Source of the DNA: Kallipyga gabonensis
GTDB taxonomy: Bacteria > Bacillota > Clostridia > Tissierellales > Peptoniphilaceae
Direction of reading: 5' to 3'
Length of the DNA: 64,000 nucleotides
Assembly: GCF_001286805.1 (NCBI RefSeq)
Contig: NZ_CXYV01000002.1
Span: 62,001 to 126,000, forward strand
Below the pieces are notes generated by a model. It was not told the DNA's origin. It did not search any database and saw nothing but the letters and a program-made list of their open reading frames with translations. The first letter of the stretch is position 1. Every line of letters starts with the position of its first letter. The position numbers were made by a program, and so were the translations under genes. Positions 13,072 through 25,545 of the stretch are shown piece after piece.

Positions 13072-14898
13072 CTATTTTTCACCTTCCAGGAGGGCATCCA
13101 CCTCTTCGAGGAAAACTCGCCCGTCCAAATCCGAGGCCATGGTCCAATTCCCTCTGGGAGACAAAGAAACCGGGCTGGCCTGTGGGCCATCGGGCATGGC
13201 TGACCGCTTAAACTGATTCTTGAAAAAACGGTCATAGAAAATCCGGAGGCAGGCCAGGATTTCCTTCCGGCTGTATTCCTCAAAAGCCCGGTCGGCATAG
13301 TCCAAAATCCGCCGGGGACCGGCCCCATAGAGAGCGAAGTAATAGAGGAAAAAGTCATGAAGGTCATAAGGTCCGATAATTTCTTCAGTCTTCTGGGCAA
13401 TTTCCCCATCCTTTGGAGGAAGGAGCTCCGGAGAAACCGGGGTCTCCACCACATCCAGGAGAACCCGGGCCAATTCCTCTTCCCCTTTTTCCCGGAAACT
13501 ATCCGCCTCATAGCGAACCAGTGCCCTGGCCAGGGTCTTGGGAATGGAGGCATTGACCCCATAGGAGGACATCTGGTCCCCGTTGTAGGTGGCCCAGCCC
13601 AGGGCAATTTCGGAAAGGTCCCCTGTCCCCAGGACCAGACCCCCATGAAGGTTGGCCAGGTCGAAAAGAATTTGGGTCCGCTCCCGGGCCTGGGCATTCT
13701 CAAAAGCCAGGGACCGATCTCCTTCCTCCAGGCCAATGTCTCGGAAGTGGATCCGGAGAACCTCCTCCAGGTCAATCTCCCGGAAGTCCAAGTCCAGGGA
13801 CCGTGCCAACTTTCGGGCATTTCCCTTGGTTTTCTCCGAGGATCCGAAGGCCGGCATGGAAACCGCATGGATCCCTTTACCCTCCAAGCCCAGGCGGTTG
13901 AAGGTCCGGAGGGCGACCAGAAGAGCCAGGGTAGAATCCAGCCCCCCTGAAATTCCGATCCAGACATCCCTGGTCCCTATGGCTGACATTCTCTGGGCCA
14001 AACCAAGGGCCTGGATGGACAGGGTCTCTTCCAAACCCTCCTCATCTTCCGGCAAAAAAGGGTGTTTGGGATAGGTCCGGCTTGTCGTCTGATGGAAGGG
14101 CGGGTCCATCTCCTCCTCCGTGTCCGTCTGAACCCGAGGCAAGAGAAGGCGGGACCGGTATCTCTCTCGGGCTTTCTTCAGGAGGAAGGGGTCCAGGTCG
14201 GCATAGATGAAGCCTTCTCCCTCTCCTTCCTTCTTCTCGGCCAGGATATGGCCATTTTCCGCGATGAGGGCCTGGGTGGAATAAACCCGGTCTGTAGTGG
14301 ACTCACCCGGACAGGCCGAGACCATGGCCAGGGCCAGGCCGTCTGCCGTCAGGACCTCCAGGGCCTTCCTCCGAGCCTTAGCCTTCCCCGGAAGGAAGGG
14401 CCGGGCTTGAGCCAGGAGAAAAAGGTCGGTCGCTTCCGAGATTCTGTCCGGAGAGAGGCGGGCGGCCTGGTCATCCGAGATAGAGGCCAGGGAGAGGGAT
14501 TTGAAGGTATGGCCGGCCTCCTCCAAAAAGAAGGGGGATTCTTCCGGGGGCTCCGGACCCCTCTTTCCCAGGACAATGAGGTCCCCCCGGTAAGCCAGGA
14601 CCATGGCCCAATAGGCTCCCCCACCGGAAATAAGAGGAAGACCAAAGACCAGGGCCAGGTCCAAGTCCTGCGTTCGGTCGGCTAAAGACTCCGCCTCCTC
14701 CCAGGCCCGCTGACAGAAAAACTCCTGACCGGAAAGATCTCCGACCGTATGACCGGTCAGGGTTCCCTCCGGAAACAGGGCTAAATCCACTTCTTCCCGG
14801 GCCATGACCCGAGCCATCTCCTCCATCGCTTGCCGGTTGAGATCCATCCTCCCCAGGCGGATCTTTGGCATGCCGCAAGCGAGTCGAAACAATTCCAT
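13072..14898 (-). CDS. nadE: Glutamine-dependent NAD+ synthetase
   Basis: NadE makes NAD from nicotinate adenine dinucleotide with glutamine as amide donor. The 608-aa protein has an N-terminal nitrilase-type glutaminase domain (LFPEGTLTGH near residue 42; likely nucleophile Cys in ACPGES near residue 194) and a C-terminal synthetase with the pyrophosphate loop GISGGLDSTLAL (near 318) and GTGDLSEIALGW. GGAGGGGAT precedes the ATG. The nucleophile context (ACPGES) differs from the common CEDLW form. Confidence 0.95.
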   Translation of the reverse strand: MELFRLACGMPKIRLGRMDLNRQAMEEMARVMAREEVDLALFPEGTLTGHTVGDLSGQEFFCQRAWEEAESLADRTQDLDLALVFGLPLISGGGAYWAMVLAYRGDLIVLGKRGPEPPEESPFFLEEAGHTFKSLSLASISDDQAARLSPDRISEATDLFLLAQARPFLPGKAKARRKALEVLTADGLALAMVSACPGESTTDRVYSTQALIAENGHILAEKKEGEGEGFIYADLDPFLLKKARERYRSRLLLPRVQTDTEEEMDPPFHQTTSRTYPKHPFLPEDEEGLEETLSIQALGLAQRMSAIGTRDVWIGISGGLDSTLALLVALRTFNRLGLEGKGIHAVSMPAFGSSEKTKGNARKLARSLDLDFREIDLEEVLRIHFRDIGLEEGDRSLAFENAQARERTQILFDLANLHGGLVLGTGDLSEIALGWATYNGDQMSSYGVNASIPKTLARALVRYEADSFREKGEEELARVLLDVVETPVSPELLPPKDGEIAQKTEEIIGPYDLHDFFLYYFALYGAGPRRILDYADRAFEEYSRKEILACLRIFYDRFFKNQFKRSAMPDGPQASPVSLSPRGNWTMASDLDGRVFLEEVDALLEGEK

Positions 14899-14913
14899 AT
14901 CCCCTCCTTATCG

Positions 14914-14938
14914 AAAAAACCGCCGGACGGCCGGCGGT
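14914..14938 (-). terminator. Terminator after the SH3-domain gene
   Basis: ACCGCCGG / CCGGCGGT (14919-14938) with a 4-nt loop is followed on the minus strand by six T, just ahead of nadE. Confidence 0.88.
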
Positions 14939-14944
14939 CTCCCC

Positions 14945-15739: not shown

Positions 15740-17896
15740 ATGAATAAAGACCCCATTCAAGAGGCTGTCGCCCGTGCCATTGACCTGGACCCCTGGTTGG
15801 CTGACTATGAGGACGACCTGATCCTTCGGCAAAATAACTACCTGACAAAAAAGAAAGAAATCCAAAACACAGTCTCTTCCCTGTCGGAATTTGCCAATGG
15901 ACACCACTACTATGGTTTCCACCGGGTGGAAGACGGCTGGGTTTACCGGGAATGGGCCCCGGCTGCCGCTCACCTTTTCCTGGTTGGCGATTTCAATGAC
16001 TGGCAGCCCTATACCCATCCCCTCCGGGCCATGGGAAACGGGGACTGGGAAATCTGCCTAAAGGGAAAAGATGCCCTCAAGCACGGTCAAAGGATCAAGG
16101 TTCTTCTCCAATACCAAAACCAGGACCATTATAAAATCCCCCTCTATATAAAAAGAGTCATTCAGGAAGTCCGTGAGGACGGATCCATCGACTGGCTCGG
16201 TCAAATCTGGGACCCGGAGGAGGACTATGAGTGGAAGACTCCTCACTTCAAGCTTTCCCGCCACGTTCCCCCCTTTATCTATGAAGCTCATATCGGCATC
16301 GCCCAGGAAGAAGGTAAGGTCTCTTCCTTCCGTGAATTTGCTGACCTCACTTTGCCCAGGATCAAAAAATCCGGCTATAACGTCATCCAGCTCATGGCCA
16401 TCATGCAACACCCCTATTACGGGTCCTTCGGCTACCATGTTTCCAACTTTTTCGCTGTCTCCTCCTGGTTCGGGACCCCGGAAGACCTCAAGTACCTGAT
16501 CGACAAGGCTCACTCCATGGGCATGGGGGTCCTCATGGACCTGGTTCACTCCCATGCCGTCAAGAACCAGGCCGAGGGTCTGGCCTTCTTTGACGGAAGT
16601 CAAGAGCAATTCTTTGTTCCCGGCCCTCGCGGCTTCCACGAAACCTGGGATTCCATGTGTTTCAATTACGGAAAGATGGACGTTATCCACTTCCTCCTCT
16701 CCAACCTCAAGTTCTGGATGGAAGAATATCATTTTGACGGTTTCCGTTTCGATGGCATTACCTCCATGCTCTACTGGGACCACGGCATGGGAACAGCTTT
16801 CACGGATTACAGCAAGTACTTTTCGCTCAATACCAATACCGATGCGGTTACCTACCTGACCCTGGCTTCCGACTTGATCCACACCCTCTCCCCCAATGCC
16901 CTGCTGGTAGCGGAAGATATGTCCGGCATGCCCGGACTCTGCCTGCCAATCGACCGCTGCGGGATCGGCTTTGACTACCGCCTCTCCATGGGGGTCCCTG
17001 ACCTCTGGATTAAAAACATGAAAAAGGATGACCATGACTGGTCGGTCAATGACATCTATTACGAAGTGACCACCCACCGGCCCATGGAAAAGCGGATCAA
17101 TTATGCAGAGAGTCATGACCAGGCTCTTGTAGGGGATAAAACCCTCTTCTTCTGGCTGACGGACCAGGAAGCCTACTGGCACATGAGCAAGGATGACGAC
17201 AACTACATCATCGACAGGGCCATCGCCCTCCACAAGATGATCCGCTTTATTACCCTGACCACCGGGGCCGATGGTTATTTGAATTTTATCGGCAATGAAT
17301 TCGGCCATCCTGAATGGATCGACTTCCCCCGTTTGGAAAACGGCTGGTCCTACCACTATGCCCGCCGCCAGTGGCACCTGGCGGACGATGACCTCCTGAA
17401 ATACTCCTATCTTCTGGAATTTGACCGGGCCATGATCCGGTTCGCTAAGAAGACCGGGATTATGGGTCCCAAGAATGTCCAACTCCTCTGGATGGACGAG
17501 CACCGTAAAATTGTGGCCTACCGGAATAATGCCTACATCTTCCTTTTTAACTTCCACCCCACCGATTCCGTAGAAAACTTCGTCCTCCCCATCTACCAGG
17601 AAGGAGGCTACCGCGTAGTCTTCTCTTCCGACCGGAAAGAATTCGGAGGATTCGGCCGGATCGACGAAGATTATATTTACCAAACCAAGACCATGGAGAT
17701 GGCCGATTTTGACCAGGGAATCCAGATCTACTCACCGGCCCGGACGGTCCTGGTTCTAAAAAAAGTGGCGAACAGCGAAGGTGATGAGGTTGATGCTGAA
17801 GCCAGGGATGCCATCGACCAAATGGTGGCTGCTGAAGCCAAGGCCCAACAGGCCCTGGTCATCCAACAGATGAAAAAATCCATGGACCGGAAGTAA
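15740..17896 (+). CDS. glgB: 1,4-alpha-glucan branching enzyme, eukaryote-like (GH13_8 type)
   Basis: The enzyme introduces alpha-1,6 branches in glycogen. The 718-aa protein has an N-terminal carbohydrate module (about 45-150) and a GH13 barrel with DLVHSHAV, the nucleophile in GFRFDGITSML (Asp338), acid/base in AEDMSG (Glu392) and the transition-state Asp in ESHDQ (Asp460). GFRFDGITSMLYWDHG and GNEFGHPEWIDFPR are typical of the plant/animal/Bacteroidetes branch rather than the usual Firmicutes GlgB. The C-terminal tail is charged. No other glycogen gene is nearby, so it may have been acquired alone. Confidence 0.93.
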   Translation: MNKDPIQEAVARAIDLDPWLADYEDDLILRQNNYLTKKKEIQNTVSSLSEFANGHHYYGFHRVEDGWVYREWAPAAAHLFLVGDFNDWQPYTHPLRAMGNGDWEICLKGKDALKHGQRIKVLLQYQNQDHYKIPLYIKRVIQEVREDGSIDWLGQIWDPEEDYEWKTPHFKLSRHVPPFIYEAHIGIAQEEGKVSSFREFADLTLPRIKKSGYNVIQLMAIMQHPYYGSFGYHVSNFFAVSSWFGTPEDLKYLIDKAHSMGMGVLMDLVHSHAVKNQAEGLAFFDGSQEQFFVPGPRGFHETWDSMCFNYGKMDVIHFLLSNLKFWMEEYHFDGFRFDGITSMLYWDHGMGTAFTDYSKYFSLNTNTDAVTYLTLASDLIHTLSPNALLVAEDMSGMPGLCLPIDRCGIGFDYRLSMGVPDLWIKNMKKDDHDWSVNDIYYEVTTHRPMEKRINYAESHDQALVGDKTLFFWLTDQEAYWHMSKDDDNYIIDRAIALHKMIRFITLTTGADGYLNFIGNEFGHPEWIDFPRLENGWSYHYARRQWHLADDDLLKYSYLLEFDRAMIRFAKKTGIMGPKNVQLLWMDEHRKIVAYRNNAYIFLFNFHPTDSVENFVLPIYQEGGYRVVFSSDRKEFGGFGRIDEDYIYQTKTMEMADFDQGIQIYSPARTVLVLKKVANSEGDEVDAEARDAIDQMVAAEAKAQQALVIQQMKKSMDRK

Positions 17897-17956
17897 TCAC
17901 GTCATCCCGCCGGAGGTAATCAAGTCGTCCCAATAAAAAAGCACCGCTCTCTAGAA

Positions 17957-18000
17957 TGCCCCCCTAAAGTTGGATTTTTTGGTCCAACTTTAGGGGGGCA
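17957..18000. repeat. 44-bp palindromic element, copy 1
   Basis: TGCCCCCCTAAAGTTGGA is followed by an 8-nt centre (TTTTTTGG) and the exact inverted arm. The same 44-bp unit occurs at 32043-32086 with its centre inverted. TG...CA ends and the sequence resemble terminal repeats of IS3-family elements, so this may be a minimal palindromic (MITE/PATE-like) element. It lies between the convergent glgB and DUF3825 genes and can fold as a very stable hairpin. Confidence 0.75.
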
Positions 18001-18084
18001 GCTCAATTCTCTAAAATAGCAGGGAAGGGCTTCCCTTGGAGGCGGCGGAATCATGGCCTTACCTAGGGACGGGCTTCCCCGGGA

Positions 18085-19194: not shown

Positions 19195-20559
19195 TCAACC
19201 TTCTTCCTCAAAACGATCAGCGGCTTTTAGTTTAACCCGATAGGCGGGGGCGGCAAAATAGTCCCTGGCTCCGGAAATGATTCCCGACTGACCGATCCGG
19301 GCATAGATGCCGGCAAATTTCTCCATGTACATAAAGAGGCCGATAACATGACTGAACTTTCTCACCTTAAATTCATAATCTTCCATATGAAGGAAGGGGG
19401 TAGGATCAACCTCAACAAACTCCTGATAAACATACTCGTCCAGGGCCAATGCATCCACAATCTCATCCCAATCTTCCTGGCTATGTTCCCGTCCCAAAAG
19501 GATCCCCTGGGAAGCGTAAGAGTTATAGGGTTTAAGAATCCAATCATCTTTTTCTGATTTCACCCGGTTTTTATCCTCCCGGGTTAAGATTTCCCTGGTC
19601 AAAGGAACATGTGCCCTGACGAAATCTCTTTCCATGGGACTAAGAATCTCCAGGGTTGCCGGATCATGGAGAACCTTAAAGATCATCTTGGAATGCATAA
19701 TCTGGGAACGGAAAGATCCCATCATGATAAAAGCCTGGTCCTGATAAGCCTGGAGAAAATCTCCACACTCCTCCATCCGGTCCAGGAAATCCGAAGTCAC
19801 CATCCGGCGGTAAACCAGGTCAATGGCTGCCTCCCTGCCCGTGTAGGGATCCGTTCCATAAAGAACCCCATCCCGGTATTCCATGGTCCGGGGGTCAGTC
19901 AGGGTACAATCGAAGCCTTCTTTTTCAAAGACTTCGTGGAAGTGACGAAACTCCTTTTCCGTCATTTTATCATCGAAATCGACGATGGCCACCGTTTGGG
20001 GAAGTTTACCTTTTAATCTCTTATATTCCTGGGTCAAGGCATGGACCAGGGGACGGAAAAGAGGGTAACGGGAGATCTCCCAATTCCGGGACATGGCTTC
20101 CATGGCTTTTGACCGGAGGAGGAGCTTACCTAAAACCCGGTCCTCATTCATCGCTGAGGATCCGTCAGTATTGAGCTCGCAAAATTTGAAATCTCCCTCT
20201 CCATTATAAAAAATATCATAACGACCGACAGGAACCGGGGTTGTATAGCCCGGATCGATCAGGATCAGGTCTTCCAAAGGGGCAGAAAAGCGGAAAGCCT
20301 TCCGGTAGGATGGGTCCTCCAAAAATTTATCGGTCACCTTTTGTCCGATGGAGGCCATGGTGCGGAGAATAGAGGCAAAAAAAGCCTCATCCTTTTCCTC
20401 AAAATAAAAGCCCTGGTAGGTCATGGGAACAGGATTACCGTGGATCAGTCTTCGCTTATTCTCCGACCTCTCCATGATTCCCCGGTAGTCTTCTTCAAAA
20501 ATCCGAGCTTGGTCCATGACCATTCGGATATAGTCTTCAGTAAATTGATTCGTAAACAT
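19195..20559 (-). CDS. Glutathionylspermidine-synthase-like (permuted ATP-grasp) ligase
   Basis: The 454-aa protein resembles the C-terminal ligase of glutathionylspermidine synthase: LILIDPGYTTPVPVGRYDIFY, FCELNTDGSSAMNED (metal/substrate region), then WILKPYNSYASQGILLG (ATP phosphate loop) and DEYVYQEFVEVDP. Such ATP-grasp enzymes join a carboxylate to an amine through an acyl phosphate. AGGAGTTCC precedes the chosen ATG at 20559. It follows a glutamate-cysteine ligase gene by about 40 bp, so the likely substrate is gamma-glutamylcysteine or a related peptide; the acceptor (glycine, polyamine or other) cannot be read from the sequence. Confidence 0.75.
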   Translation of the reverse strand: MFTNQFTEDYIRMVMDQARIFEEDYRGIMERSENKRRLIHGNPVPMTYQGFYFEEKDEAFFASILRTMASIGQKVTDKFLEDPSYRKAFRFSAPLEDLILIDPGYTTPVPVGRYDIFYNGEGDFKFCELNTDGSSAMNEDRVLGKLLLRSKAMEAMSRNWEISRYPLFRPLVHALTQEYKRLKGKLPQTVAIVDFDDKMTEKEFRHFHEVFEKEGFDCTLTDPRTMEYRDGVLYGTDPYTGREAAIDLVYRRMVTSDFLDRMEECGDFLQAYQDQAFIMMGSFRSQIMHSKMIFKVLHDPATLEILSPMERDFVRAHVPLTREILTREDKNRVKSEKDDWILKPYNSYASQGILLGREHSQEDWDEIVDALALDEYVYQEFVEVDPTPFLHMEDYEFKVRKFSHVIGLFMYMEKFAGIYARIGQSGIISGARDYFAAPAYRVKLKAADRFEEEG

Positions 20560-20601
20560 GGAACTCCTATCTATTTCTCTGAGCCCGGTCATTGAATGGA
20601 A

Positions 20602-21927
20602 TTATCTCACTCCTTCTTTCCTCCGTGCAAGAAGAATTCGGCGTAGGCCTTCCCATCCCTCTTCTTCCTCTATTTTTTCATAAGAAATCCGAGGCGTTTC
20701 CAAGTGGGACCAGAGATTACGGAGGGGGGCTAAATAGGCCTTTTCCTCTTCAGAAAGCCCTTCTTGAGCCAGATCCAAGAGCTTGATTCCCCAGTTGGCA
20801 AAGTAGTCGGAAAGATAATAGCCGTGAATCCCGTTATCTCGTCCGGAATCCATCCCTCGCTCAACCAGGTCGATAGAGACCGTCTTAAACTTACGGTCCA
20901 GTCGATCCAGATTATTCATATCATAGAAAAGCCCCTTGATCATCGCTGTGACCGCCAAAGAAAGGTCAAGCGGAAGGGCATCCATGGGTCGGATTTCCAA
21001 AAATCCTTTAACCCGAATATCCGGAAAGACAATGCCTAAAGCCTGGTCAATGAGCCCACTCCACTCTTCTTCAGATTCCGCCTGATCCATGGCCTGGGAC
21101 AAAGTTATATCCCCGGTTTCAACTTCCTTTTCCCCTTCCAGGCGGAAGAGGATGACCCGGTCAAGCAGCCAATCTGCATAAGAAGCAAAAGAAAAATCCT
21201 CCTCAAAGCTGGTAGGAATCAAGCCGGTCCGGTCCGGATCTGTCCCCCGCCAAATTTCCTGTCGGGCATTGAACTTATCCAACTTGTTTCCACTAAGCCG
21301 GGAGACAGTATCCGTCAGGGTATAGAGGATAGGAACCATGGCGGTTAGGATGCGGTATTTTTTCTGAAAATCTTCGGGTCCAAAGTAGTCGATGGAGACT
21401 TGCAGGGCACAGGAAAGCCGCATCATCTTCCGGGAATGGGAACCGTGGGCTCCTAGCCAATTGTTCATAATCCGGTAGCGTTCCTTGGCGATAATCGGAA
21501 CATCCAGGGCTTGATTATCAGGATCAGCCCCCAAAGCCATCATACCGTAGCCGTATTTTTCAAGGACAGGAAGAAGGAGGTTGTAGCCCTTTTGTGCACG
21601 TTCTTCCAGGGTTTTGATGTCCCTTGCCTGAGGGATGGAGAGTTCAAACTGAGCCCCGGGCTCAATGGATACGGCCATATCCTCATTGCGAACTCCGGCA
21701 ATATGGCCATTGATACGAACCGGTTCCAAGCCCGGCATTCGAGCTAACTCCTCCAGGATTTCCAGGACACCGGGCTGACCTTCATAGAAAATTCGCCGTC
21801 CGGTCTCCCGATCGACAATCATATGCTCCATCTCGATACCCAGTTGACCTTGTCCCGGCTTTTTGTCGGACTTGATCCGGTCAACAATCCGGTCAATCTT
21901 TTCCTGTCTTGTCCTTTTCATCCTCAT
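20602..21927 (-). CDS. Glutamate-cysteine ligase (GCS2 family)
   Basis: The 441-aa protein has the GCS2 layout: LGIEMEHMIVDRETG at the N-terminus (metal-binding Glu pair), EPGAQFELSIPQ, MMRLSCALQVSIDY and FLEIRPMDALPLDLS. This family forms the gamma-glutamyl bond to cysteine or related amines. GAAGGAAGGGACG precedes the ATG at 21927; a GTG upstream is less likely. It is the first gene of the operon with the permuted ATP-grasp ligase and DUF3825, and is divergent from a metallo-beta-lactamase-fold gene. The fused GshF found in many Firmicutes is absent here. Confidence 0.82.
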   Translation of the reverse strand: MRMKRTRQEKIDRIVDRIKSDKKPGQGQLGIEMEHMIVDRETGRRIFYEGQPGVLEILEELARMPGLEPVRINGHIAGVRNEDMAVSIEPGAQFELSIPQARDIKTLEERAQKGYNLLLPVLEKYGYGMMALGADPDNQALDVPIIAKERYRIMNNWLGAHGSHSRKMMRLSCALQVSIDYFGPEDFQKKYRILTAMVPILYTLTDTVSRLSGNKLDKFNARQEIWRGTDPDRTGLIPTSFEEDFSFASYADWLLDRVILFRLEGEKEVETGDITLSQAMDQAESEEEWSGLIDQALGIVFPDIRVKGFLEIRPMDALPLDLSLAVTAMIKGLFYDMNNLDRLDRKFKTVSIDLVERGMDSGRDNGIHGYYLSDYFANWGIKLLDLAQEGLSEEEKAYLAPLRNLWSHLETPRISYEKIEEEEGWEGLRRILLARRKEGVR

Positions 21928-22070
21928 CGTCCCTTCCTTCACAATATGGATACTTTCTTTATGTTATACCCAGGATTGAGAAAAGATTGCACTCTCTACC
22001 GACTTGATCTAATAGAGGAATGGAGGGGTATATAAAGAGAATAAATGATGAAAAAATCAAAGGAGGTCAT

Positions 22071-22829
22071 ATGCCAACGGTTATTACCCTCACCTATCTT
22101 TATAATTCCGGATTTTCCCTGGACTTCCCCGACCGCTTCCTGGTTGTGGATTATATCCAGGGTCCCTTACCCCTTCCCAAGGATAAACCCATCACTTTCA
22201 TTGTTACTCATGCCCACAGCGACCACTATAACCCTCGAATTTTCACTATGAAAGGGGCGGAGAATGCGACCTTTGTCCTGTCCACGGATGTGGAAGAGTC
22301 TTCATCTGACGGCAAGTTCATCCAGCTCTCCTCGACCGTGGAAGAAACCCGTCGCAAAAAAATCATCTATGATCCAAGCCGAACTCTTCGCCTGGAACCC
22401 GGTGATAGCCAAAGCTTTCAAGACATCCATTGGACGGCCTTCGGATCCACCGATCAAGGCATTTCCATCCTCTTTGAACTAGGCGGGATTTCCTTCTTCC
22501 ACGCCGGTGATCTCAACGCCTGGAAATGGCCGGATTGGCCGGAGGAAGATCAGGACCGGGAAGTCAGTGACTTTATGGAAATCCTGGATGACCTGGAAAA
22601 ATTCCCTGTCGACATTCTCTTTGCTCCTTTAGACCCCCGCTTGGAAGGAAACGCCTTCCTCGGCCCCATGGCCATGATCCAACGGCTCAAGCCCCAGATG
22701 TTCATCCCCATGCATTTCCGGGAGAAAATGGACATCACCCAATTTTTCAGGGACCACTACCAGGCTCAAACAAAAACCTTCCTCACAGAGATCACAGGAA
22801 AAGGCCAGCAGATCCGGATCCGGAGCTAG
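22071..22829 (+). CDS. Metallo-beta-lactamase-fold hydrolase
   Basis: The 252-aa cytoplasmic protein has the metal motif THAHSDHYNP near residues 45-53, a second histidine in FFHAGDLNAWKWP and a last one in FIPMHFREK. These give a complete binuclear site. AAAGGAGGTCAT precedes the ATG at 22071. It is divergent from the glutamate-cysteine ligase operon with about 140 bp between, so a thioester or thiol-conjugate substrate is conceivable but unproven. Confidence 0.85.
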   Translation: MPTVITLTYLYNSGFSLDFPDRFLVVDYIQGPLPLPKDKPITFIVTHAHSDHYNPRIFTMKGAENATFVLSTDVEESSSDGKFIQLSSTVEETRRKKIIYDPSRTLRLEPGDSQSFQDIHWTAFGSTDQGISILFELGGISFFHAGDLNAWKWPDWPEEDQDREVSDFMEILDDLEKFPVDILFAPLDPRLEGNAFLGPMAMIQRLKPQMFIPMHFREKMDITQFFRDHYQAQTKTFLTEITGKGQQIRIRS

Positions 22830-22952
22830 ACCAGGGGGGCTCATAGCGGAATCCGGGGCCTTGTCAGAACAAAGCTTCCTTAGGAAACCTCATGATCCGC
22901 CATCTCCCGGGCCCCCGCAGAACTAAAAACCCTACCAATTAAGAAATTCATG

Positions 22953-23244
22953 AGAATATCAGGGCCAGGATCCCTGACAATTCGTAGAACCTCAAAAAAA
23001 TCAGGGTCAAAAAATCCCTGATAAATGAGCAGATTGAAAGATTATCAGGGGATGAAACCCTCTCAAATTGGAAAATTTCAAGAATATCAGGGCAAAAAAT
23101 GGCCCTGTTATTTTGGCAGATAGCAAAAATGTCAGGGCCTCTCAACCCTGACATTTTGTTTAATCCTGAGAATATCAGGGGCCAGGATCCCTGACAATCT
23201 GCCTATTCCCAGACAATCAGGGTCAAAGATCCCCAGCGTACAGC
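22953..23244. repeat. Tandem hairpin array 1 (seven units, about 43 bp period)
   Basis: The 506-bp gap between the MBL-fold gene and ackA has no credible gene. It carries seven inverted repeats of the form ATCAGGG-loop-CCCTGAT. TCAGGG starts at 22959, 23001, 23045, 23087, 23132, 23175 and 23217, a spacing of 42-45 bp. Units 1 and 6 are nearly identical over about 27 bp; unit 5 has 12-bp perfect arms (AAAATGTCAGGG / CCCTGACATTTT); unit 7 is degenerate on its right arm. DNA between the hairpins is unrelated. The bases before the array (22830-22950) hold only minor inverted repeats. Confidence 0.85.
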
Positions 23245-23273
23245 AAAACTTAAACTCCTGAATGCTACAATGC

Positions 23274-23322
23274 AAAAAAAGGCTGTGCCGGAACAAACAA
23301 ACTGTTCCGGCACAGCCTTTTT
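23274..23322. terminator. Bidirectional terminator after ackA
   Basis: Fifteen-bp perfect arms (GGCTGTGCCGGAACA and complement, 23281-23317) are flanked by an A-run and a T-run, so it can work on both strands. It is related in sequence to the terminators at 26819 and 57513. Confidence 0.92.
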
Positions 23323-23335
23323 AATTTCCTTCCGC

Positions 23336-24538
23336 TTATTTTCCTTCAACCAGACGCTTGGTGTCCCGGGCAATCATGAGCTCTTCGTCAGTAGGAATCA
23401 CCATAACCTTGATCGCGGAATCTTCGGCAGAGATGGTCTTCTCCTTGGGCTTACGCTGGTTGTTGATTTCCTTATCCAACTTTACCCCGATAATCTCCAG
23501 GCCGTCACAGATAGCTTCCCGGTCCTTGGATCCGTTCTCGCCAATGCCGCCGGTGAAGGTGATGGCATCAATCCGGCCGCCCATCATGGTGGCGTAGGCA
23601 CCGATGGTTTCCCGGCAGCGGGAGTGGAAGATCTTGAGAGCCAGCTGGCAGGCTTCATCCCCCGATTCCGCCCCCTTCTCCAGGTCTCTGAAGTCGGAGG
23701 AAAGGCCGGAAATGCCCAGAACGCCGGATTCTTTATTGAGAACCTTGTCCACTTCTTCAGGACTCATACCCAGCTGCTTAATCATATAGATGATAATGGA
23801 GGGATCGAGGTCACCGGACCGGGTCCCCATGGGGAGGCCGGCTAAGGGAGTCAGGCCCATGGAGGTCATAATGGATTTGCCGTTTTTGACGGCGGTGATG
23901 GAAGACCCGTTGCCCAGGTGGCAGGAGATGAGGTTCACTTCCTCTACCGGCTTGCCCAGGAGTTCAGCCGCCCGGTTGGTGATGAAATTGTGGGAAGTTC
24001 CGTGGAAGCCGTAGCGACGGATGCCCTGATCCTTATAGTAGGAAAGAGGAATGGGATAAACAAAGTTTTCCTTAGGCATGGTCTGGTGGAAAGCAGTGTC
24101 AAAGACAGCGACCTGGGGCTTGCCTTCAAGGAGAGAGGAGCAGGCCTGGATTCCCTGAAGATTAGCGGGGTTGTGGAGGGGAGAAAAGGGAACCACTTCT
24201 TTGATGGCATCCAACACTTCCTGGTCGATGATGGTGGATTTGGTGACTTTTTCTCCGCCATGGACCACCCGGTGACCGACAGCATCAATTTCCTTAAGGT
24301 CCTTGATGACCCCATGGTCCGGAGAAGTCAGAGCATCGAAGACCAGCTCAACCGCCGTCTTATGGTCGGGAATAGCCGTCTCCAGCTCAAATTCTCCCTT
24401 ATCACTTTCCTGCTCGATGCGGGAACCTTCAATGGCAATTCTTTCAACGAGGCCCTTGGCCAGAACCTTTTCCCCATCCATGTCGAAAAGTTGGTATTTC
24501 AACGAAGATGATCCGCAGTTAATCACTAAAACTTTCAT
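23336..24538 (-). CDS. ackA: Acetate kinase
   Basis: AckA makes ATP from acetyl phosphate in fermentation. The 400-aa protein starts MKVLVINCGSSSLKYQ and has HRVVHGG, YGFHGTSHNF, SCHLGNGSS, MGTRSGDLDP and FTGGIGENG, all ASKHA acetokinase motifs. The start at 24538 is supported by GAGGAGGATAGG; a longer reading frame upstream is not needed. No phosphotransacetylase gene is adjacent. Confidence 0.97.
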   Translation of the reverse strand: MKVLVINCGSSSLKYQLFDMDGEKVLAKGLVERIAIEGSRIEQESDKGEFELETAIPDHKTAVELVFDALTSPDHGVIKDLKEIDAVGHRVVHGGEKVTKSTIIDQEVLDAIKEVVPFSPLHNPANLQGIQACSSLLEGKPQVAVFDTAFHQTMPKENFVYPIPLSYYKDQGIRRYGFHGTSHNFITNRAAELLGKPVEEVNLISCHLGNGSSITAVKNGKSIMTSMGLTPLAGLPMGTRSGDLDPSIIIYMIKQLGMSPEEVDKVLNKESGVLGISGLSSDFRDLEKGAESGDEACQLALKIFHSRCRETIGAYATMMGGRIDAITFTGGIGENGSKDREAICDGLEIIGVKLDKEINNQRKPKEKTISAEDSAIKVMVIPTDEELMIARDTKRLVEGK

Positions 24539-24621
24539 CCTATCCTCCTCATTATTCTTTCCGTTCAAGCTTATTCTTTTTCGTTTCCAATACGCACATT
24601 CCAATGAATATATTACCCTCT

Positions 24622-25545
24622 TTACTCCCTCCAAAGCGGCGACGGATAAGTTCCCTCTTCCACCTTCCGGGTAAAGCCTTCTCGGACTCTGGCCTTATCT
24701 TCCTGATAGGTTACCCCCATCCATGCCTGATCCGTGGTCAGGACCCGAACCCGGGCATCCCCCTCTTTCAGTTGTCGGGTGATAACCGAAGGCAGGTAAC
24801 ACTCCGCTTTCAATGGATTCTCGGGGACTTCCTTATTGATAAAAGACAGAAGCTCATCTTCAATGGCCCCCATGAAAGAAGGCCGAAAGCCCCAGAAATT
24901 CATGGACACAGGGCTGTCTCCGGCGAGGAGGATTTCCCGATCTTTTCCGTCTTCACCGGCGACCAGGGACCTCCCATCTTCCCCTTCCTGGAAAATTCGA
25001 GTGTGCTCCACTACGCGGGCAAGGTAACCCCCCTCCACCTGGCAGACCCCTCGGGAAACCGACCCGTTGGCCGTCAGGGTCTTGTTGAGCTTGTAGGCCA
25101 CCATGGCGTGAGTGGGGATGTCGGCTCCCGGATCCTGAGCCAAAAAATCATAAATTAAGGAAAAAGCCCGGTCACCGTAGTAATCATCCGCATTGATGAC
25201 GGCAAAGGGGCCATCGATTAGACCTCGAGCCGCATAGACGGCCTGGGCGGTTCCCCAGGGTTTGGTCCTTCCATCGGGAACCTCTCCCCCCGGCATATCC
25301 CGGAGATCCTGGAAGGCAAAATCCGCCTTCATGTCCCGGGGCAAGTGGCCGACCACGGCCTCACGGAAAACCTCCTCATGCTCCCTTCGAATGATGAAGA
25401 TGGTCCGACGGAAGCCTGCCCGGTAAGCATCATAGAGGGAGTAGTCCATGATGACCTCCCCTCCCGGTCCCACCGGATCGACCTGTTTGAGGCCCCCGTA
25501 GCGGGACCCCATGCCCGCCGCCATAATGACAAGAATTGGATCCAT
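24622..25545 (-). CDS. NDP-sugar nucleotidyltransferase family protein
   Basis: The 307-aa protein has the nucleotidyltransferase signature MAAGMGSRYGGLKQ near the N-terminus, PWGTAQAVYAARG and the metal-binding FAVINADDYYG. It probably transfers a nucleotide to a sugar phosphate. The substrate cannot be told from sequence; the family is not GlmU- or GalU-like in length or C-terminus. GGAGGTTGCT precedes the ATG. It is 83 bp upstream of ackA on the same strand. Confidence 0.8.
   Translation of the reverse strand: MDPILVIMAAGMGSRYGGLKQVDPVGPGGEVIMDYSLYDAYRAGFRRTIFIIRREHEEVFREAVVGHLPRDMKADFAFQDLRDMPGGEVPDGRTKPWGTAQAVYAARGLIDGPFAVINADDYYGDRAFSLIYDFLAQDPGADIPTHAMVAYKLNKTLTANGSVSRGVCQVEGGYLARVVEHTRIFQEGEDGRSLVAGEDGKDREILLAGDSPVSMNFWGFRPSFMGAIEDELLSFINKEVPENPLKAECYLPSVITRQLKEGDARVRVLTTDQAWMGVTYQEDKARVREGFTRKVEEGTYPSPLWRE

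Follow-up and report, generated by a model that had tools for sequence, protein, structure and literature searches.

What kind of element occupies the gap between the 3' ends of two convergent genes in the window, that is, the whole 64,000-nucleotide stretch of Kallipyga gabonensis DNA that was analysed? The original prediction placed seven hairpins there, built from 14 half-sites of alternating orientation at a spacing of 42–45 bp, and considered a protein-binding array, a structured non-coding RNA or a decayed mobile repeat. The array is real, its position between the convergent 3' ends is as described, and both the half-sites and their spacing are borne out. The register is different. Each CAGGG had been paired with the CCCTG that follows it, whereas the constant unit is a 35-bp dyad, CCCTG-N25-CAGGG. 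Seven of these units span 22930–23222, with linkers of 7–10 bp between them (Table 1). The first half-site, CCCTA at 22930, falls outside the span originally assigned to the array, and the last clear half-site is CAGGG at 23218–23222; the seventh of the predicted hairpins would require a degenerate half-site near 23232.

Table 1. Units and linkers of the array and the features that flank it, in window coordinates.
Feature	Position	Strand	Description
Left neighbour, metallo-beta-lactamase-fold protein (Lactamase_B_3)	22020..22829	+	3' end faces array
Dyad unit 1	22930..22964	no strand	CCCTA-N25-CAGGG, one mismatch
Dyad unit 2	22972..23006	no strand	CCCTG-N25-CAGGG, exact
Dyad unit 3	23016..23050	no strand	CCCTG-N25-CAGGG, exact
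Dyad unit 4	23058..23092	no strand	First word CCCTC, one mismatch
Dyad unit 5	23103..23137	no strand	CCCTG-N25-CAGGG, exact
Dyad unit 6	23146..23180	no strand	CCCTG-N25-CAGGG, exact
Dyad unit 7	23189..23222	no strand	34 bp, interior 24; read from sequence
Linker-bearing span	22965..23188	no strand	Six linkers: 7, 9, 7, 10, 8, 8 bp
Linkers 1–3	22965–22971, 23007–23015, 23051–23057	no strand	7, 9, 7 bp
Linkers 4–6	23093–23102, 23138–23145, 23181–23188	no strand	10, 8, 8 bp (last read from sequence)
Terminator-like hairpin of convergent gap, 20-bp stem	23276..23322	no strand	Outside array
Right neighbour, acetate kinase	23336..24634	-	3' end faces array

The hairpin pattern as first drawn has 4 matches in the window against 0.59 expected, a count reached in one of 100 shuffles. 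A pattern for the single unit, with up to two mismatches allowed, is no commoner in the window than chance (57 matches, 63.9 expected); thus, the significance of the array rests on the tandem order of its units. Chance is excluded mainly by recurrence, since a two-unit pattern gave 46 forward matches in the window genome (G000; 1.62 Mb, two contigs) and its reversed control gave none. Growth by duplication and a block common to units 1 and 6 had also been proposed. The block is present, as 20 bp at the junction of units 6 and 7 repeat identically those at the junction of units 1 and 2, 217 bp apart. Duplication is supported both by this block and by a five-unit higher-order repeat in Murdochiella arrays, a pattern that the window block fits.

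Relatives of the array were identified by blastn at many places in the window genome and in both of its genus-mates, Kallipyga massiliensis ph2 (G001) and the MAG SUG1733 (G002), amounting to three of 21 genomes; none was identified in the 18 other relatives. When the two-unit pattern was searched against 249 genomes of the order, seven matched and the reversed-pattern control gave 0. The three Kallipyga genomes contained 46, 103 and 32 matches, and three of five genomes of genus g40, taken as Murdochiella, contained 85, 103 and 122. A single pair in G010 sits within spanning ORFs and was set aside. The TCAGGG arrays that were to be sought in related genomes lie scattered through intergenic DNA in three Kallipyga genomes and are also found in Murdochiella, where the longest have 26 units. 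A three-unit pattern searched against a collection of 84,980 species returned 51 stretches: 18 from K. massiliensis, 8 from SUG1733, 20 from Murdochiella (two records) and five others, distant matches that proved to be ordinary tandem repeats with near-identical or nested units. G119 and G121 are closely related to each other and to the two named Murdochiella records. A strict unit that includes the centre motif occurred in 6 of 130 genomes of the family, with controls at 0, and on the strength of this restriction to six genomes the idea of a lone ancestral operator elsewhere in the family was rejected. Iteration of an nhmmer profile confused the registers of these near-palindromic arrays, and parsing with a fixed geometry was used instead.

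Within the array spans of the two genera, 391 of 415 adjacent CCCTG..CAGGG pairs enclose exactly 25 bp (154/162 in Kallipyga, 237/253 in Murdochiella), and interiors that deviate measure 24, 26 or 67–68 bp. Among distinct units, 179 from Kallipyga and 254 from Murdochiella, every word position is 94–100% constant, a pyrimidine occupies position 7 in 99% and 95%, respectively, and positions 16–20 tend to RAWTY in both genera. Families of CCCTGA type and CCCTGG type (type-2) coexist in one genome and have CCCTG/CAGGG in common. Nine orthologous array pairs were aligned and six were counted; left out were L040–L078, which are too alike, and L074–L088 and L075–L089, which have decayed to two units and one unit. 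Between G000 and G001, the words of the six differ at 15 of 365 sites (4%), the interiors at 233 of 910 (26%) and the linkers at 73 of 249 (29%), with 22 reference columns against gaps (15 of them in interiors) and 17 columns representing insertions. Fourfold-degenerate sites in 62 ortholog gene pairs of the analysed regions differ at 2765 of 8813 (31%). Divergence of the words is thus roughly one-eighth of that at fourfold sites, a figure biased somewhat towards conserved words by the one-mismatch definition of a unit. By this comparison, interiors and linkers are close to neutral, whereas the words and the length of the unit are maintained.

The linkers fall into discrete classes. Between consecutive exact units, Kallipyga has 163 linkers of 6–10 bp, 0 of 11–16 bp and 11 of 17–21 bp, and Murdochiella has 185 of 6–10 bp, 0 of 11–17 bp and 31 of 18–19 bp. 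Longer linkers number 21 and 39, respectively, and mostly measure 48–53 bp (15 and 34), a length that fits one skipped degenerate unit; Kallipyga linkers of 38, 57 and 61 bp lie outside both classes and do not fit a skipped unit. The mean fitted period is 43.22 bp for 22 Kallipyga arrays and 42.73 bp for 14 Murdochiella arrays. A straight lattice was superior to permuted linkers in all 36 eligible arrays, with a largest deviation of 1.46 bp, where eligibility required at least five units, no skipped units and unequal linkers. These conditions left 22 of 35 arrays in Kallipyga and 14 of 22 in Murdochiella, from spans located by a fixed-spacing search that is biased towards regular arrays. Neighbouring linkers alternate between long and short (correlation −0.87 and −0.52). 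The minority of CCCTG linkers in the 17–21 bp class give a period of 53–54 bp, as in a type-2 array of the window genome (L061 1219–1682). The unit steps of about 43 bp, or about 53–54 bp with the longer linker, differ by roughly one helical turn, and the linker classes together with a lattice of about 43 bp held within 1.5 bp constitute helical phasing. Part of this regularity is inherited through higher-order repeats, so the arrays are not independent: the identity of units at lag 5 is 0.80, 0.68 and 0.75 in three Murdochiella arrays, demonstrating a five-unit higher-order repeat that is absent from the fourth array tested (L142).

A similar frame carries other words elsewhere. The Murdochiella-genus genome G120 has no CCCTG matches by either the two-unit or the strict-unit pattern, and its arrays are composed of TACAGT-N25-ACTGTA with N16 between, at a period of 53. 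At three loci from the fixed-spacing finder, the interior is 25 in 28 of 28 cases and the gap is N16 in 25 of 25; with 23–27 and 14–18 allowed genome-wide, all 30 listed matches are 59 bp (gaps total 41 bp). The TACAGT..ACTGTA pattern has 43 forward and 46 reverse matches, in one of 130 genomes. At L194–L197 of G120, 38-bp near-perfect palindromes, mostly ACCGT-N26-ACGGT and read by eye, recur with a period of 64–65 bp, and all four of these arrays lie between convergent genes. G123, whose main arrays are CCCTG, contains a four-unit TAGAG-N25-CTCTA array with a period of 53 (L228 1395–1588). When units are aligned on the dyad centre, CCCTG and ACAGT both occupy −17..−13, followed by A or R and then Y. 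The AT fraction at −10..−8 is 0.94, 0.92 and 0.90 in Kallipyga, 0.69, 0.84 and 0.71 in Murdochiella and 1.00, 1.00 and 0.98 in G120, where the richness extends over −10..−7; a variable stretch follows and then the centre, with AT fractions of 0.92, 0.98 and 0.96. The units are thus characterized by AT-rich blocks about 8–10 bp from the dyad centre and by an AT-rich centre.

The pattern GACA-N25-TGTC-N19 was chosen in the light of Table 1 of PMC8161180, and its N25 gap is thus no independent discovery; it occurred in one of 398 Bacillota genomes sampled, a distant one, with 543 forward matches and 0 in the control, and another genome gave a single control match per strand. Its 27 distinct units are AT-rich at −10..−8 (0.98, 1.00, 0.81) and at the centre (0.85), blocks that were not part of the selection. 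An inverted-word scan of the 24 consensuses in that table gave mixed gaps, with 25 in lito42, 26 in therm30, 23 in coag8 (5-base word) and other values or none in most; such mixed gaps alone do not support one frame for all 52-nt families. In 247 kb of G641, a free-spacing finder detected three arrays whose words are spaced differently (d 22, 36, 43), and the dyad finder also caught other spacings such as GGACA with d 34 and a period of 62 in L139. Dyad arrays were not found in G003 (99 kb), G004, G006 and G017 (100 kb each) or G010 (116 kb), which are soft negatives given that the exact-word finder returned 0 arrays in the window itself, where two units have one mismatch each. From 302 kb of G122, the finder retrieved two repeats, both of which were flagged as lying within ORFs.

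It had been supposed that no element of this design was described, which is not quite right. Bacterial tandem repeats of constant size (52 and 20–21 nt) and variable sequence have been published (Subirana and Messeguer 2021, PMC8161180). Their describers call these satellites enigmatic, the size being kept and the sequence not, and propose one or more proteins that polymerise on the DNA repeats, with short signals that are species-specific. The present arrays resemble them in being non-coding, in forming many short arrays per genome and several sequence families of the same size, in short signals that often occur with their own reverse within one repeat, and in partial conservation among strains. 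Periods of 52–54 bp in G120, G641 and the minority of CCCTG arrays come near to the published size. In contrast, the main period here averages about 43 bp and lies outside the 20–21 or 51–53 nt that define constant-size repeats, and the 35-bp dyad frame, the quantised linkers and the selection on words go beyond a description that includes no internal frame. The CCCTG arrays are a new size class, with a defined frame, of constant-size variable-sequence repeats. Prokaryotic satellites are likewise tandem repeats scattered in few prokaryotes, and dispersal of a non-coding family is given as rare, with cases in Leptospira interrogans and Methanocella conradii, in the abstract of PMC6749651; its text does not name Kallipyga or Murdochiella. 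In the K. massiliensis genome paper (PMC3910704), a term search found neither "CRISPR" nor "palindrom", and "repeat" once, for bootstrapping. Among the literature matches listed, judged by title and the start of the abstract and mostly outside subscription journals, none concerned these arrays in Kallipyga or Murdochiella.

With respect to genomic context, 0 of 57 arrays have more than half their length within a gene, as predicted with a simple script. Of the 56 gaps that hold arrays, 26 are convergent, compared with 35 of the 258 other gaps that measure 80 bp or more (Fisher p 2e-7, an optimistic value because orthologous loci are counted more than once). Full type-1 arrays at nine independent loci in tandem gaps, a count that leaves out one partial array (L085), have the A-rich strand along the genes in five cases and against them in four. 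A link to one gene was rejected, as few families recur among the array neighbours of both genera. Units lie 3' of a permease-family gene in 6 of 10 genomes searched, in both genera (G000 one exact, G001 six, G002 two, G119 and G121 twenty, G123 seven), and none do so in G120, G122, G003 and G010; the association is compatible with chance or old ancestry. Clustering at the origin was dropped: Kallipyga arrays looked nearer dnaA, but the G123 arrays listed (100 of 122 forward matches) did not.

The array is probably a satellite-like set of phased binding sites for a putative twofold-symmetric DNA-binding protein, and acts at the level of DNA. The protein-binding option of the original prediction is strengthened by the conserved words, the fixed N25 and the helical linkers. 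A dimer of a putative architectural protein would read one word with each half, and the DNA between may be bent or wrapped. Dimers at adjacent sites would face the same side of the helix and could form a cooperative filament or bridge. The role may be architectural, either in organising the nucleoid or in insulating gene ends. Such a role would agree with the bias of the arrays towards convergent gaps and with the absence of strand bias and of any neighbour gene that recurs. Arrays would expand and shrink by whole units and by blocks of units, and species would change the word and keep the frame.

Were the array transcribed, it might instead serve as a multi-hairpin non-coding RNA or a protein sponge in which the words form stems, a reading that is quite unlikely. 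The inverted words give short stems in either register, the window array, folded as RNA, outscores shuffled sequences (z −4.8), as expected of any inverted-word array, and the 52-nt repeats of B. coagulans are transcribed according to PMC8161180 and PMC8625621. Beyond the words, however, pairing is at or below the shuffled level at most positions: there is no general excess across the dyad in 433 units of both genera or in 196 oriented type-1 units. At 9–27 and 13–23, Watson-Crick pairs are scarcer than in shuffles in both genera. Among the exceptions, pair 6–30 is raised in both genera (z 4.6 and 4.2) and shows no excess in the oriented units with G-U allowed, and pair 15–21 is raised in Kallipyga only (z 4.8) and reaches z 5.3 in the oriented units with G-U allowed, on either strand. 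Pair 12–24 is raised in Murdochiella (z 2.9), pairs 11–25 and 12–24 are weakly raised in the oriented units with G-U allowed (z up to 2.8), and the across-linker pairs 30|6 and 28|8 are raised in Kallipyga (z 3.7 and 3.0). Stem covariation, the suggested check for a structured RNA, thus appears weak or absent, and that option is weakened, with exceptions at 6–30, 15–21, 12–24 and 11–25. An RNA would have no need for interiors of exactly 25 nt or for linkers quantised by about one turn, nor would the five-to-four split of the A-rich strand be expected of it. Of 20 Rfam matches listed for 22700–23500 of the window, none reaches its gathering score.

A selfish satellite or non-autonomous, BIME-like mobile repeat, spread by a palindrome-recognising transposase or recombinase without host function, is an unlikely explanation. 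In its favour, a six-unit block with unit-specific linkers is dispersed across the three Kallipyga genomes, the gap of the window array holds CCCTGG-type (type-2) units in K. massiliensis, a species that is alone in having a full array at a nearby gap, and orthologous arrays vary in their number of whole units, with one in L075 where L089 has six. Dispersal and unit gain and loss therefore agree with the "decayed mobile repeat" first suggested, but decay does not, since the end words are far more conserved than fourfold sites, unlike those of dead copies. Mobility also offers no evident reason for helical quantisation, and the two-unit pattern has 0 matches in 2.9 million viral contigs. REPs are similarly short palindromes grouped in intergenic DNA and carry a GTAG or CGTC tag, the GTAG class being associated with RAYT transposases, according to PMC3733652; unlike in REPs, those letters occur within 6 bp of an end in 0 of the 179 units from Kallipyga and in 38 of the 276 from Murdochiella. 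The RAYT-type domain Y1_Tnp (PF01797) was present in 7 of 21 genomes searched and in none of the three Kallipyga genomes. The regular spacing and fixed length could also bring to mind a decayed CRISPR or other adaptive array with fixed-length inserts, but this is highly improbable: the supposed repeat would have only 5+5 conserved bases, interiors are related between units (lag-5 identity 0.68–0.80 in three of four Murdochiella arrays) and between orthologous arrays, there are many arrays per genome, and the sole Rfam CRISPR match scores 15.9 against a gathering score of 36.

The reading as phased protein-binding sites may be extended, tentatively and with considerable doubt, beyond the CCCTG arrays. 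Satellite-rich Bacillota might share one architectural scaffold that measures a dyad of about 35 bp (words at −17..−13, AT-rich −10..−8 and an AT-rich centre) and forms polymers along lattices with a step of about 4, 5 or 6 helical turns. The word (CCCTG, ACAGT, ACCGT, GACA) would change fast and co-evolve with the arrays, and the 52-nt repeats would be the five-turn version. The protein itself, its role and any unity with all 52-nt repeats are inferred. By analogy, such a scaffold could be regarded as a bacterial parallel to centromeric satellites. In eukaryotic alpha-satellite with CENP-B boxes, diverged monomers arranged in higher-order repeats keep a short protein-binding word and turn over in a species-specific manner. 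The present arrays share the higher-order repeats, the diverged units with a conserved short word and the species-specific turnover; unlike alpha-satellite, they are tiny (2–26 units), scattered over the chromosome and, among the arrays listed for G123, not tied to the origin. The frame may explain the constant size, as a fixed dyad and linkers set by helical turns would determine length while the main sequence kept is a short species-specific word. The puzzle then becomes a biochemical question of which protein binds the 35-bp dyad, and the answer would reveal a new nucleoid protein family.

Several further observations concern neighbouring DNA and related arrays. At about 17953–18024 of the window, a perfect inverted repeat (TGCCCCCCTAAAGTTGGA...TCCAACTTTAGGGGGGCA) adjoins a lone AATAGCAGGG half-site (about 18014–18024). 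At the matching gap, a full six-unit array is present only in K. massiliensis (L076 5839–6088), and the window copy was possibly lost near an insertion-sequence remnant. Elsewhere in the window genome (L069 6263–7919), two genes, which we take to resemble an IS3-type transposase pair, separate two pieces of a type-1 array. The adjacent genes at 19195–21942 of the window, one a CP_ATPgrasp_2 match below the curated cut-off and the other a glutamate-cysteine ligase (GCS2), could possibly belong to a gamma-glutamyl peptide pathway. Near-identical arrays with a period of 53 bp lie 1.6 kb apart at L198 of G120 (14702–14942 and 16333–16573), which suggests a recent duplication. At L188 of G122, 3' of the permease-family gene, the repeated words GTGTGGGCAA and TTGCCCACACG were seen by eye together with a GC-rich tandem repeat, and these words possibly represent another word family of similar arrays.
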